From a virus, in IMG/VR virus record IMGVR_UViG_3300036719_002747, positions 1-21,135 of that record: a stretch of DNA of 21,135 bases. One strand, given 5' to 3'. The translations under genes and the position numbers were made by a program. Positions 10,253 through 20,621 of the stretch are shown piece after piece. A model generated the notes under the pieces. It saw nothing but the letters and a program-made list of their open reading frames with translations, had not been told where the DNA came from and ran no database searches. Each line of letters begins with the position of its first letter. Position 1 is the stretch's first letter.

Positions 10253-10753
10253 CTAGCCTTGGTTGCGGCGCAGACCGAGCCGCTTCCAGTTGGCGTACAG
10301 CGTCTGACGTGACACTGAGAACCGGGCGGCCACGTCTTTGACGGTCATGCCGGTGCGGTGCAGGTCCCATGCTTGCCTGTAGCGATCGTCCGACAGTTTC
10401 TGGGAGTGGACTCTGACGATGGATGCGACTCTGCCGAAGAACTGATCGCGTGTTTCCCACTTCAAGTGGGCGGGGTTCACGCAGTCCTCAGAGCCGCAGT
10501 CGGCGACAGCCGCGTAGGCGTCCTCTGGTTTGGTTCCGTCGCGTTCCTCCAGCAGTACGACACGCAGGTTGACGGGTGTAGGCCGCTTGCCGGGTTCGGC
10601 TCGGCGGCCAACCCGGGGCACGCCGTTTGATACATGGCCGATCCAATGCCAGCACCCTGCCTCGTCGACGGTGGAGTGAAGCGCCGCACGATCCTCGTAG
10701 GTGGCGTTGTTCGGTGCGCGTGTAGTCAGCCGTGAGGCTGGCCGGTTCTGCAT
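10253..10753 (-). CDS. HNH-related protein with C-terminal helix-turn-helix
   Basis: Residues about 30-105 have the shape of the HNH homing-endonuclease-like family: an early CWHWIG (34-39), a strand and helix (VNLRVVLLEE), and DCGSEDCVNPAHLKWET (85-101) with the CVNPAHL signature. The first catalytic His expected before the Cys pair is not obvious, so nuclease activity is uncertain. Residues about 121-163 form a resolvase-type helix-turn-helix (MTVKDVAARFSVSRQTLYANW). The ATG lies 4 bases after the previous stop, with GGGAG upstream. A role as a DNA-binding nuclease or regulator is inferred. Confidence 0.75.
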   Translation of the reverse strand: MQNRPASRLTTRAPNNATYEDRAALHSTVDEAGCWHWIGHVSNGVPRVGRRAEPGKRPTPVNLRVVLLEERDGTKPEDAYAAVADCGSEDCVNPAHLKWETRDQFFGRVASIVRVHSQKLSDDRYRQAWDLHRTGMTVKDVAARFSVSRQTLYANWKRLGLRRNQG

Positions 10754-10757
10754 GGTG

Positions 10758-11078
10758 TCACTCCCAAGAGTGTCTGAGGAAGCCCGCAGCGTGGGCCTCG
10801 TTTGGGTGGGATTCTGTCCACTCGTGGTGTGGACGGCACAACAATTTGATATTTGACGGATCAAGGATCGACCCGCCACGTGACCGTTTCAGCACCTCGT
10901 GCATATCGACCCACTGCTTGGTGCAGCCCGGGTACTCGCAACGGGGTCCGCGTTGCTCCAGCAGTTGCTTTCGGAGCACGGCACGTTTGCGGTTATCTAC
11001 CTTCCGCTTGGCCGACTGAGCAGCGATCCGCTTAGTCGCTTTCAGCGGTGTCCGTCGTTTGATGGGCGACCGCTTCAC
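10758..11078 (-). CDS. HNH endonuclease
   Basis: A 106-residue HNH nuclease with a strongly basic N-terminus (about residues 1-40). The zinc-binding pair is Cys47 and Cys52 with Cys81 and His84, and the catalytic HNH set is His60 (MHEVLKRSRGGS), Asn76 (DPSNIKLLC) and His85 (PHHEW). Phage HNH proteins of this size often work with the terminase in DNA packaging, but no terminase is in the window. The GTG start lies 6 bases after a TAGTGT -10 with an upstream TGG, and has no ribosome binding site, so it appears leaderless. Confidence 0.85.
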   Translation of the reverse strand: MKRSPIKRRTPLKATKRIAAQSAKRKVDNRKRAVLRKQLLEQRGPRCEYPGCTKQWVDMHEVLKRSRGGSILDPSNIKLLCRPHHEWTESHPNEAHAAGFLRHSWE

Positions 11079-12425: not shown

Positions 12426-13622
12426 CTACTGCGCCGGTTGGCAAACGTGCAGATCCCACCAGCGGCTATCACGAGTGGTGAACGTCAGGACACCCGGCTG
12501 CGAAGTGGCGCCACCGATCTCGGCGTACCAGCGACTCCCACCGTCCATTGCCGGGCACTGAAAGAGCCAGCGGCCGGACGCAACTTCCTCCACCCTCAGA
12601 TGGTGCCGGTGACCAACGACAAGCACGTCGCCAAGATCGGCGTCACCCCACCGGGTAAACGAAACCTCTCGCCACCAGTTACGCAGTTTATCGGCCGACC
12701 CGCGCTGCTGATCGCCGTGAGCGAGCAGCACGTTCGTCCCACAGATCGGCACGAGTGAGACCAGCGTGTCGCGTGGGATCACAAACTCAATGTGCGCACC
12801 CCACTCGGACTCGGCGCACACCTCGGCCAGTCCTTCCACCACGTCAACATCGGCGTTGTCCTCAAACGTCGTGTCGACTTTCTGGTTGCGGCGACCGTGG
12901 TTGCCGGGGATACCGACAACGGTGATGTGCTGGAACAGCGGGACTAGCCGCTTCAGCCATGCCAGCAGGATGCGGCGAGCCACACGAACCTGTCCGGACA
13001 GGTCCAGATCAACGGTGAACGGCTGCGCCGGGTACTGGCCGAACACGCCTTCCACAAGGTCGCCGAGCGCCGGGATCAACAGATGGGTGGCCCCATGTTT
13101 GACGGCGTGCTTGGCGCGTGCCTCAATGTCATCCAGCACATCAAGCAGCCGTTCCGCCGCTGCCGCACTCCCACCCTCTCCGCCAATCTGCCAGTCGGTG
13201 GCGACAACAACAAAGCACGAACCCGGTTCGTCGGTGACCGGCTTTCGGCGTGGCTTCCACCGCTTCACTTGTTTGAGCAGGTCAACCACATCAACGTCAC
13301 TGGTTGTGCGACGACGGATGGCCGCCTTGTATTGGCGGTAGATCGTAGCCTCACCACCAGCGGTCGGCCCCTCCCACGCGTTGACGCGCAGGGTCGCCTC
13401 GTCGACCACCCACTCGTCGGGCGACAGACCCCAATGAGCGAAGATGGCGGCCCAGTCAGGGGTGGCGTCGTTGGCGCACGTGCCGGTGACAAGTTCGCCG
13501 GTGTGCTGATCGACCTGCGTGAACCGCGGTGGTTCCTGCGGAGTCCGGCGGTTCGCGTCCGCCCGGCCGCTCGGTTCGTTACGGGTAATGGCCTGCTCTA
13601 CACCACGGACGAACTCACCCAT
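12426..13622 (-). CDS. calcineurin-like metallophosphoesterase
   Basis: A 398-residue protein of a family common in actinophages. An N-terminal helical part (about residues 50-130, PDWAAIFAHWGL, then IYRQYKAAIRRRT) precedes the phosphoesterase domain: metal ligands in ATDWQIGG (Asp143), ALGDLVEG (GD 187-188), GIPGNHGR (GNH 240-242), an AHGDQQ block (His302) and VVGHRHHLR (about 337-341), followed by a QCPAMDGGS end. Members hydrolyse phosphomonoesters or phosphodiesters of nucleotides or DNA; the substrate is unknown here. Its ATG overlaps the stop of the upstream HTH gene by 8 bases, so the pair is probably co-expressed. Confidence 0.85.
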   Translation of the reverse strand: MGEFVRGVEQAITRNEPSGRADANRRTPQEPPRFTQVDQHTGELVTGTCANDATPDWAAIFAHWGLSPDEWVVDEATLRVNAWEGPTAGGEATIYRQYKAAIRRRTTSDVDVVDLLKQVKRWKPRRKPVTDEPGSCFVVVATDWQIGGEGGSAAAAERLLDVLDDIEARAKHAVKHGATHLLIPALGDLVEGVFGQYPAQPFTVDLDLSGQVRVARRILLAWLKRLVPLFQHITVVGIPGNHGRRNQKVDTTFEDNADVDVVEGLAEVCAESEWGAHIEFVIPRDTLVSLVPICGTNVLLAHGDQQRGSADKLRNWWREVSFTRWGDADLGDVLVVGHRHHLRVEEVASGRWLFQCPAMDGGSRWYAEIGGATSQPGVLTFTTRDSRWWDLHVCQPAQ

Positions 13623-13914
13623 CGGTACCCGCCTTGGTCTGATAGCCGTGCTTGGTATGGAAGCCGTAGCAGACACACCTCTCGTTCCGATGCCGTCTGA
13701 TACTCATGTAACTCGGGGCCTCCAACCCGGCGTCAACCAGACGGCGCACAAGCCACGTGTGTGCGATCTCGTTGACGGGGCGGGACAGCAACTCGTTGAA
13801 CAGGTCTTTGTCGTCGCTGTCCATCAAATCGGTTAGGCGCGCCACGATGCAGCGACCTTCGGTCGTTGTGCGGTGTTCGTCATTCCGATGCACGGCATCG
13901 CTGAAAGCGCCCAC
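13615..13914 (-). CDS. HTH-type protein paired with phosphoesterase
   Basis: A 99-residue protein whose core (DKDLFNELLSRPVNEIAHTWLVRRLVDAGLEAPSYMSIRRHR, about residues 35-76, read in separate segments) follows a pattern seen in actinophages where a small helix-turn-helix protein precedes the metallophosphoesterase. SIRRHRNERCVC marks the recognition helix end. The GTG start has a TACAGT element 8 bases upstream and no ribosome binding site. Co-expression with the phosphoesterase is certain from the 8-base overlap. It probably binds DNA. Confidence 0.7.
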   Translation of the reverse strand: MGAFSDAVHRNDEHRTTTEGRCIVARLTDLMDSDDKDLFNELLSRPVNEIAHTWLVRRLVDAGLEAPSYMSIRRHRNERCVCYGFHTKHGYQTKAGTDG

Positions 13915-18676: not shown

Positions 18677-18864
18677 TCAGGGTTCCAGTCTGTCCATGCC
18701 GCATCAGGATGGCGGCCGAACCACCAGTCCCGACATTCGGCGCAGCCCCACACATACACGATCTGGCCGTCGTATGTTTCGGCTACCACGTAGCCAGCCG
18801 CTGGGGCGTTCCAATGGCTGCCGTTGATCTCACAAAGATGGCTAGAAGCCTTCCGACGCGCCAA
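18673..18864 (-). CDS. small CxxC protein, 63 aa
   Basis: The TTG start at 18864 is preceded by GAAGGGA 6 bases upstream; a TTG at 18885 lacks such a site. It overlaps the upstream zinc protein by 23 bases. The protein has CEINGSHW near residue 11, a beta-like middle (YDGQIVYVWG), then CAECRDWWFGRHPDAAW, where the Cys pair and the Cys11/His residues may bind zinc, and an acidic, Trp-rich end. Function unknown. Confidence 0.6.
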   Translation of the reverse strand: MARRKASSHLCEINGSHWNAPAAGYVVAETYDGQIVYVWGCAECRDWWFGRHPDAAWTDWNPE

Positions 18865-19159
18865 GCCAGTTCCCTTCCAGATCAAAGTCGTGGCGGGTTA
18901 CCCGACCGGATCGGATTGCGCCGCACTCGTCGCAGTAGTGGTCGACGTTGTAGTGGCCCTCAGCCCATCGGCGGCGCTCAATCGTGCGACAGTGACGGCA
19001 CGGTTCAGCGATCGGCGGCAGCCCCGAGTCTGCGCTGACAACAAGCGCCCATCCCTTGTCCATGCACTCTGGACAGCGGTACAGCGGTTCGGAGAACCGG
19101 CTCGCTGGGCGTTTGGGGAACGATGCGGTTGGTGCTTGTGCCTGCTCAGTCGGTGCCAC
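18842..19159 (-). CDS. zinc-finger protein, 105 aa
   Basis: The GTG start at 19159 overlaps the helicase-loader-like gene by 14 bases and has AAGGAG 7 bases upstream. Two Cys pairs, CPEC (about residues 29-32) and CRHC (about 54-57), frame a glycine-rich loop, and a third CDEC (about 75-78) with nearby His suggests a second small zinc site. Paired zinc ribbons like these occur in phage replication-module proteins that bind DNA or RNA. The coupled position behind initiator and loader genes supports a replication-linked role, but I cannot name it. Confidence 0.7.
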   Translation of the reverse strand: MAPTEQAQAPTASFPKRPASRFSEPLYRCPECMDKGWALVVSADSGLPPIAEPCRHCRTIERRRWAEGHYNVDHYCDECGAIRSGRVTRHDFDLEGNWLGASEGF

Positions 19160-19607
19160 TGGTCAACTCCTTCAGTGTGGTTGCTCGTCGTTTCTCGGTG
19201 TACGTGTTGATGAACCGGTCGCGCAGCCTGTCTAACTGGCGCATATCGTCGACGGGGACGCCCTGAAGTCCACCGCAAAGTTCGTACACAATCCGGCTTG
19301 CCACCCGGTCCGGTGTTGGCCCGGTGATCGGGGTACGCGACTGGGCTTGACTGGCTGAGTCGACGATAGCGCGCCATTGCTGGTCGGCTTGCGAGCGGCT
19401 GCCAATGGCAAGGTCGATCACGTCTGCCGGAGTCGGCTGCCAGCGTTGAGTGACGAACAGTTGGTTGACCGCGCGGATGGCTGCGTCAGGCCGGTCGATT
19501 GTGGTCAAGGCGTTGGCGTAGAACGTCTTTCGGGTGCCTGTCATGTCTGCCTGCGGCCATAGTTCGCCGATGAGGCTGGCGACCTTGACGGCTTCCTCTG
19601 GGGTCAC
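19146..19607 (-). CDS. helicase-loader-like replication protein
   Basis: The GTG start overlaps the initiator stop (GTGA, 19604-19607). The protein is helical: TPEEAVKVASLIGELWPQ (about residues 2-19), then an FYANALTTI block, then AAIRAVNQLFVTQRWQPTPADVIDL (about 43-67, read in parts), followed by a polar linker and a C-terminal helical region. This resembles phage helicase loader proteins of the G40P-inhibitor type, which bring the replicative helicase to the origin. An initiator gene upstream with origin repeats inside it supports that role. No P-loop is seen, so it would not be an ATPase. Confidence 0.65.
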   Translation of the reverse strand: MTPEEAVKVASLIGELWPQADMTGTRKTFYANALTTIDRPDAAIRAVNQLFVTQRWQPTPADVIDLAIGSRSQADQQWRAIVDSASQAQSRTPITGPTPDRVASRIVYELCGGLQGVPVDDMRQLDRLRDRFINTYTEKRRATTLKELTSGTD

Positions 19608-20512
19608 AGCCCCATTGCTTTCATCTGTCGGACCATCTCGGTTACGTCCTCGTCGTTGGTTGTTGGTTTGGTTCGGCTGAGAGCCACCCTGCACTGGTCC
19701 CAGTGGTCGCGCAGTGCCCCGGCGGATCGGATCTGGTCGGCCCAGCAGAACCCTTTGCGGTCTGGGCTGGAAAGCCGATCGAAGATAGCATACACCATCG
19801 TCGCCACGTCGTCGGGGGATGGGGCCGGGCCGTCCACATGTTTCGGTCCCCGCTTCAGCAGCAGCCGCATGTCGCGCACCCACGCCGCCGAGACCTTCGG
19901 TCGCGAACCCCGCTGGTCCTGCACCTTGTCGGCCAGCAGTGTGCAGAGAGCCGTGACTTCCTGTTCGTCGTCAGGCGCAGCGACGGCGGGCAAACCGCCG
20001 GAGCCTGAAGAAAGAGCCTGAAGTGAATATGCATTGGTATCTTCGGTATTACCTTCATAGGGGTGTTGGGAATCCGCAGGGGGGGTGTTGGGAATCCGCA
20101 CCCCGGGGTGTTGGGAATCCGCAGTCGTCCAGTCTACGAGGTAGTATTTCTGGCTGCCGTGCTCCGGATGCCCAACGATCTGATGCCGCAGCAACCCGGT
20201 TTCCTGCAACCGCCTGATAGCGTCACGGACCCGGCCGACTGACAGGCTCAACTGCTCGGCCACATCGTCGTAGCGCAGTTTCACCCACGGCAACGACGGG
20301 TCATCCGCAGCGAATCGTCGGGTCTCCCCGGCTGCGTCCCGAATCCAATTCCACTTCCAGACACGCATCAGCACCAGCGAGTCGACGGTCGCGCTCGTCC
20401 TGCTGATACCAGCCTCCACGAGCAGGTCGACCACCCGTGGGTGATAGACGACCGCATCGTGGTGGACGCCTTGGGTTACGAACGCTGGCGCAGCGTCCAC
20501 GAAGTCACTCAT
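19604..20512 (-). CDS. replication initiator (lambda O-like arrangement)
   Basis: A 302-residue protein. Residues about 75-130 form a winged helix (LRYDDVAEQLSLSVGRVRDAIRR, then TGLLRHQIVG and a KYYLVDW wing). Residues about 131-151 are encoded by three 19-bp repeats; 151-172 is a flexible Ser/Gly/Asn linker encoded by AT-rich DNA. Residues about 185-302 form a helical C-terminal domain (VRDMRLLLKRG, then DDVATMVYAIFDRL, FCWADQIRSAGALRDHW). In lambda O the N-terminal domain binds iterons in its own gene and the C-terminal domain binds the loader. The ATG (20512) has AAGGGA upstream; the longer frame to 20671 crosses the promoter region. Confidence 0.8.
   Translation of the reverse strand: MSDFVDAAPAFVTQGVHHDAVVYHPRVVDLLVEAGISRTSATVDSLVLMRVWKWNWIRDAAGETRRFAADDPSLPWVKLRYDDVAEQLSLSVGRVRDAIRRLQETGLLRHQIVGHPEHGSQKYYLVDWTTADSQHPGVRIPNTPPADSQHPYEGNTEDTNAYSLQALSSGSGGLPAVAAPDDEQEVTALCTLLADKVQDQRGSRPKVSAAWVRDMRLLLKRGPKHVDGPAPSPDDVATMVYAIFDRLSSPDRKGFCWADQIRSAGALRDHWDQCRVALSRTKPTTNDEDVTEMVRQMKAMGL
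20007..20123. repeat. candidate replication origin: iterons plus AT-rich stretch
   Basis: Three identical 19-bp copies of GGGGTGTTGGGAATCCGCA lie at 20060-20078, 20082-20100 and 20105-20123, spaced 22 and 23 bp. The 54 bases beside them (20007-20060) contain 21 G/C, so about 61% A+T, in an otherwise GC-rich window. All of it lies inside the initiator gene. The unequal spacing puts copy 2 in a different reading frame from copies 1 and 3, so the DNA is conserved rather than the peptide. This matches an iteron-type origin with an unwinding element. Confidence 0.65.
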
Positions 20513-20583: not shown

Positions 20584-20621
20584 CGTCCGGTGTCCAGCCC
20601 CCCCAGTGTGGGCACCGGACG
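20584..20621 (+). other. hairpin in leader of rightward operon
   Basis: CGTCCGGTG (20584-20592) is exactly complementary to CACCGGACG (20613-20621), with a further 2 bp after a mismatch. The loop is C/G rich. It lies in the presumed 5' leader between the promoter at 20553 and the GTG at 20647. It may act as an RNA structure, attenuator or operator. Confidence 0.45.

Follow-up and report, generated by a model that had tools for sequence, protein, structure and literature searches.

A putative lambda-O-type replication origin inside the initiator gene of a probable actinobacterial phage

Three identical short repeats lie inside a phage gene that appears to encode a replication initiator, and the question is whether they mark the origin at which that initiator acts. 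Origins of this kind are already established for lambdoid phages and SPP1. In lambda, iterons and an A+T-rich stretch within the O gene constitute ori-lambda (PMC7466680), while in the Bacillus phage SPP1 oriL lies in gene 38, where direct repeats accompany an A+T-rich unwinding element; gene 38 encodes the origin-binding protein, and the helicase loader gp39 acts at oriL (PMC6316719). The window studied here comprises the full length of an IMG/VR viral contig (21,135 bases), which is probably itself a fragment. Taking together the sequence anatomy, the remote homology to O and the conservation of the layout in relatives, all of which were observed, we consider it very probable that the window contains a lambda-O-type replication origin inside its own initiator gene.

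The initiator gene occupies positions 19604-20512 on the minus strand and encodes 302 amino acids. About 390 bases into it stand three copies of the 19-base iteron TGCGGATTCCCAACACCCC, all on the minus strand: iteron 1, the first in the direction of the gene, at 20105-20123, iteron 2 at 20082-20100 and iteron 3 at 20060-20078. The copies are identical at 19/19 bases, their start-to-start distances are 22 and 23, and the spacers between them are GGGG and CCC, so that the coordinates, copy number and spacing given in the earlier note proved exact. The peptides were also read as that note had claimed (ADSQHP, RIPNTP and ADSQHP), but only the middle copy differs, since it is out of frame with copies 1 and 3, which are read alike. 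The iterons encode residues 130-151, a linker region of low confidence in the AlphaFold model, and their dyad symmetry is weak (5/9 pairs, centred on GGAATCC). The 16-base iteron core GTGTTGGGAATCCGCA has only these three sites in the contig at up to two mismatches, and at up to three mismatches an equal number of matches was obtained in 0/100 dinucleotide shuffles. Moreover, the repeat score of the gene (42) exceeded those of all 100 synonymous-codon shuffles (highest 34), in which codons were permuted among synonymous positions, leaving protein and codon usage unchanged; for lambda O, used as a positive control, the score was reached by 1/100 shuffles in this first test and by 0/60 in the survey described below. 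When the core was searched in a set of viral contigs, just four matches were found, all of them single and in unrelated genes, which indicates that the exact iteron is not a shared sequence.

Directly downstream of the iterons, in the direction of the gene, lies a candidate DNA-unwinding element at 20007-20059 on the minus strand, with 62% A+T. The A+T-rich stretch that had been proposed to adjoin the repeats is thus present, and it is the A+T maximum of the contig at both 40- and 54-base lengths, the contig average being 36.5%; the 50 bases downstream of the iterons have 62% A+T, as compared to 38% across the gene. The enrichment is nevertheless moderate, as the 40-base maximum reaches 65%, against 80% in lambda. 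GC skew displayed no clear minimum at the iteron site in this contig, which is a fragment. An inverted repeat (CGTCCGGTGTCCA / TGGGCACCGGACG, 12/13 pairs) was also observed at 20584-20621, between two divergently read genes.

The encoded protein is composed, according to the AlphaFold model, of a winged helix (about residues 25-125), a disordered linker (about 127-177) and an O-like C-terminal domain (about 180-299). As the gene is on the minus strand, the order in the direction of the gene is winged helix, iterons, A+T-rich stretch, C-terminal domain and overlapping next gene. The N-terminal part is modelled as helical and winged-helix-like; overall confidence is low, while the helical C-terminal domain is confident. 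Pfam matches to winged helices were weak and under the cut-offs, and PDB matches to solved HTH proteins were weak, though consistent, which together with the low-confidence model favours the winged helix that the earlier note had placed there. The same note described the initiator as unrelated-looking with respect to lambda O, which turned out to be wrong. The window protein matches phrog_391, annotated as 'replication initiation O-like', at both of its ends (E 1e-6), and also phrog_22834, while lambda O matches phrog_391, phrog_2514, phrog_2357 and phrog_22834. In addition, a profile built from the window protein and eleven relatives was aligned by hhalign to the C-terminal domain of lambda O with E 8e-10, through the motif W..D.RL....F.W..N..S..KLRDK. 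Based on the phrog_391 matches and this profile alignment, the initiator is remotely related to lambda O.

The next gene (19146-19607, minus strand) encodes an all-helical candidate helicase loader of 153 amino acids; its GTG start codon lies at 19607, and it has GTGA (19604-19607) in common with the stop codon of the initiator gene. Its product is 46% identical to that of the gene at the equivalent place in the relative L072, and this L072 copy has a weak match (E 0.019) to phrog_8924, to which the gene after the initiator gene of phage Alderaan belongs. No significant sequence or fold match to known loaders was found for the window product. Its best natural fold match was lambda P, with a non-significant E of 0.8; all its fold matches, lambda P included, were discounted because the structure model is weak (mean pLDDT 65). 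The proposal that this gene encodes a helicase loader stands as no more than plausible. Next in the cluster is a small CxxC zinc-ribbon-like protein (18842-19159, minus strand), 44% identical to the L072 protein at the same position. Elsewhere in the window, two adjacent HNH endonuclease-type genes, possibly homing endonucleases, are found on the minus strand within the structural gene region (10253-10879 and 10758-11078), and a Mre11-like phosphoesterase / exonuclease is encoded at 12426-13676, also on the minus strand; the latter has a distant relative that is widespread among phages of Streptomyces and Cutibacterium.

In its arrangement the locus resembles lambda O in several respects: the iterons lie in the initiator gene between the DNA-binding and C-terminal halves, the A+T-rich stretch follows them, the next gene overlaps, and the C-terminal domains are homologous. 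It differs in having three iterons instead of four, of unrelated sequence, in the weaker A+T-rich stretch (62%), in a next gene without recognisable relationship to P, and in belonging to a GC-rich phage with a probable actinobacterial host. The likeness to SPP1, drawn from its published description, consists of repeats and an A+T-rich element within the initiator gene, although SPP1 additionally possesses oriR, a second origin, and a helicase of its own. The domain order of the window protein is shared by the O-like initiators of phrog_391 / phrog_22834 from actinobacterial phages and prophages (for instance L051, L066, L057, L050); many members of these families carry repeats at the position of the window's, with iteron sequences that vary, and several of them have a common half-site, GGGGTGCA / TGCACCCC, partly like the GGGGTG...GCA of the window. 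Finally, the RepA-like initiators of the extrachromosomal mycobacteriophages Miko, Rachaly and Jeeves are HTH proteins, as in the window, and their origin is thought, with lambda as the model, to lie in or adjoining the gene; however, the accessible text of that study reports no repeated motif in the neighbouring regions examined (PMC7157519).

To place the window among its homologs, initiator genes were surveyed. Direct tblastn and pattern searches with the window protein returned almost no relatives, and no close relatives of the full-length protein were found; relatives were therefore reached via alignment with distant phage proteins. They were collected by C-terminal domain alignments and near-duplicates were removed, which yielded 60 non-redundant initiator genes, the window and lambda among them; a further 135 ORFs of these loci served as controls. 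In 26/60 initiators, against 6/135 control ORFs, internal repeats scored above all 60 synonymous shuffles (Fisher p 1e-10), and this comparison with relatives lends good support to the lambda-O-like plan put forward for the locus. The remaining 34/60 genes fail this strict test; in some of them the repeats are weak, others are perhaps without repeats, and for some of the more distant full-length homologs no repeat signal was detected at the sensitivity of the survey. Of the positives, 22 have a locatable C-terminal domain motif, and in each of these the repeats stop ahead of that domain, at a rather constant distance from it (median 153 nt; 164 in the window and 217 in lambda), and their spacings are mostly 16-17, 22-24 or 33 bp. 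Moreover, among the 34 genes in which no more than one shuffle attained the score of the real sequence, the 50 bases that follow the last repeat exceed the gene in A+T content (p 2e-5), while the 50 bases before the first repeat have no such excess (p 0.83).

The repeat sequences differ from phage to phage, with a similar position in the gene. Six copies of GGGGTGCAGAATCTGCACCCC are found in L066 and L074, and six of CCCCCGAACACGGTTCACC in L081. Two full-length relatives have kept arrays similar to that of the window: L139 has GGGGTGCA sites spaced 23 and 22, as in the window, and L048 has GGTATCAAATCTGATACC and variants of it, four related sites at distances of 33, 22 and 22, one of which is a near-perfect palindrome. 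Clear palindromic sites occur in L048, L074 and L098. Some surveyed genes, however, carry purine-rich runs (GGGAACAGG) and not palindromic sites, and these may be different in kind. Such runs were observed in the linkers of Alderaan and its relatives (L011:2907-2954, L069, L096), and also of L129, L135, L150 and L151, for example GGGAACAGGGAACAGG, which encodes the peptide NREQGTG; they form no palindrome and are mostly not followed by an A+T-rich stretch. A separate observation concerns L051, L054, L062 and their relatives, whose near-identical initiators have strain-specific iterons at gene nt 262-390 (CGAACACGGT, CGAACACCGT, CGAACGCCGT), with several copies altered within one gene; judging from these sequences, a concerted change of iterons is possible.

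The nearest homologs of the window at the C-terminal domain are L072 and L047. L072 is a four-gene syntenic relative with the genes in the same order; besides the next gene and the zinc-ribbon protein, the identities are 43-52% for the C-terminal domain and 57% for the phrog_779 protein. Its initiator (L072:2836-3348), of about 170 amino acids, has neither winged helix nor repeats, and that of L047 (L047:2977-3417) is similar; both consist of the C-terminal O-like domain alone, and the next gene still follows. Homologs that keep the gene and lack the repeats had been named in the earlier note as evidence against an origin; L072 and L047 are indeed without repeats, but the winged-helix half is missing from them as well. 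This joint absence fits the origin model better than it refutes it, and suggests, from two cases, that winged helix and repeats were lost or gained together. It is conceivable, although we hold the idea only tentatively and slightly lean against it, that the winged-helix half and the iteron array form one exchangeable 'origin specificity' cassette on a fixed C-terminal domain and next gene. If so, phages without the cassette, such as L072 and L047, must mark their origin in some other way.

Could the repeats have another role? They might be initiator binding sites for regulation, by autorepression or a transcription block, with the origin elsewhere. Winged helices are frequent in repressors, and a contig that is a fragment leaves room for an origin outside it. 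Nevertheless, we regard this as unlikely: the sites are deep within the gene, away from the promoter, an A+T-rich stretch comes after them in the window and in most relatives, and the equivalent layout serves as an origin in lambda (PMC7466680) and SPP1 (PMC6316719).

Somewhat less likely still is that the repeats arose not long ago by neutral tandem duplication, within a sequence-tolerant linker. The identity of the three copies is what a young duplication would give, the spacers are simple and the linker is predicted to be disordered; such an event, however, does not account for the unrelated repeats that many homologs carry at this position, similarly spaced and out of frame, for the one-sided A+T bias in those homologs, or for the rarity of repeats in control ORFs (6/135). 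Selection for a repeated linker peptide could draw on the fact that copies 1 and 3 both encode ADSQHP, but the middle copy is read in another frame, as RIPNTP, and out-of-frame copies occur in 18/20 homologs with repeats (purine-rich type excluded); given these mixed reading frames, peptide-level selection is rejected as highly improbable.

Returning to the in-gene origin, iteron binding, melting, helicase loading and origin activity are proposed by analogy with lambda (PMC7466680) and SPP1 (PMC6316719). The N-terminal winged helix would bind the three 19-bp iterons in the linker-coding part of the gene, where a site spacing of about two helical turns (22-23 bp) would align the initiator in a stack on one face of the DNA. 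The stacked initiator would then help to melt the downstream A+T-rich stretch; its C-terminal O-like domain would bring in the protein encoded by the overlapping next gene and, via this protein, the replicative helicase.

The host probably belongs to the Actinobacteria, as suggested by the relatives and by the best matches of other window genes. In-gene iterons were not found described for actinobacterial phages with initiators of this O-like group, in a literature search beyond whose reach most subscription papers lay. Origins are poorly mapped in phages of Actinobacteria, and the mycobacteriophage RepA study, in its accessible text, proposed a lambda-like in-gene origin without having detected repeats near the gene (PMC7157519). 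For a large set of O-like phages, the present results would provide a rule for origin prediction: the region to inspect is the part of the initiator gene that codes for the linker, immediately ahead of an A+T-rich stretch. The segments so predicted are small enough for replicating-plasmid tests.
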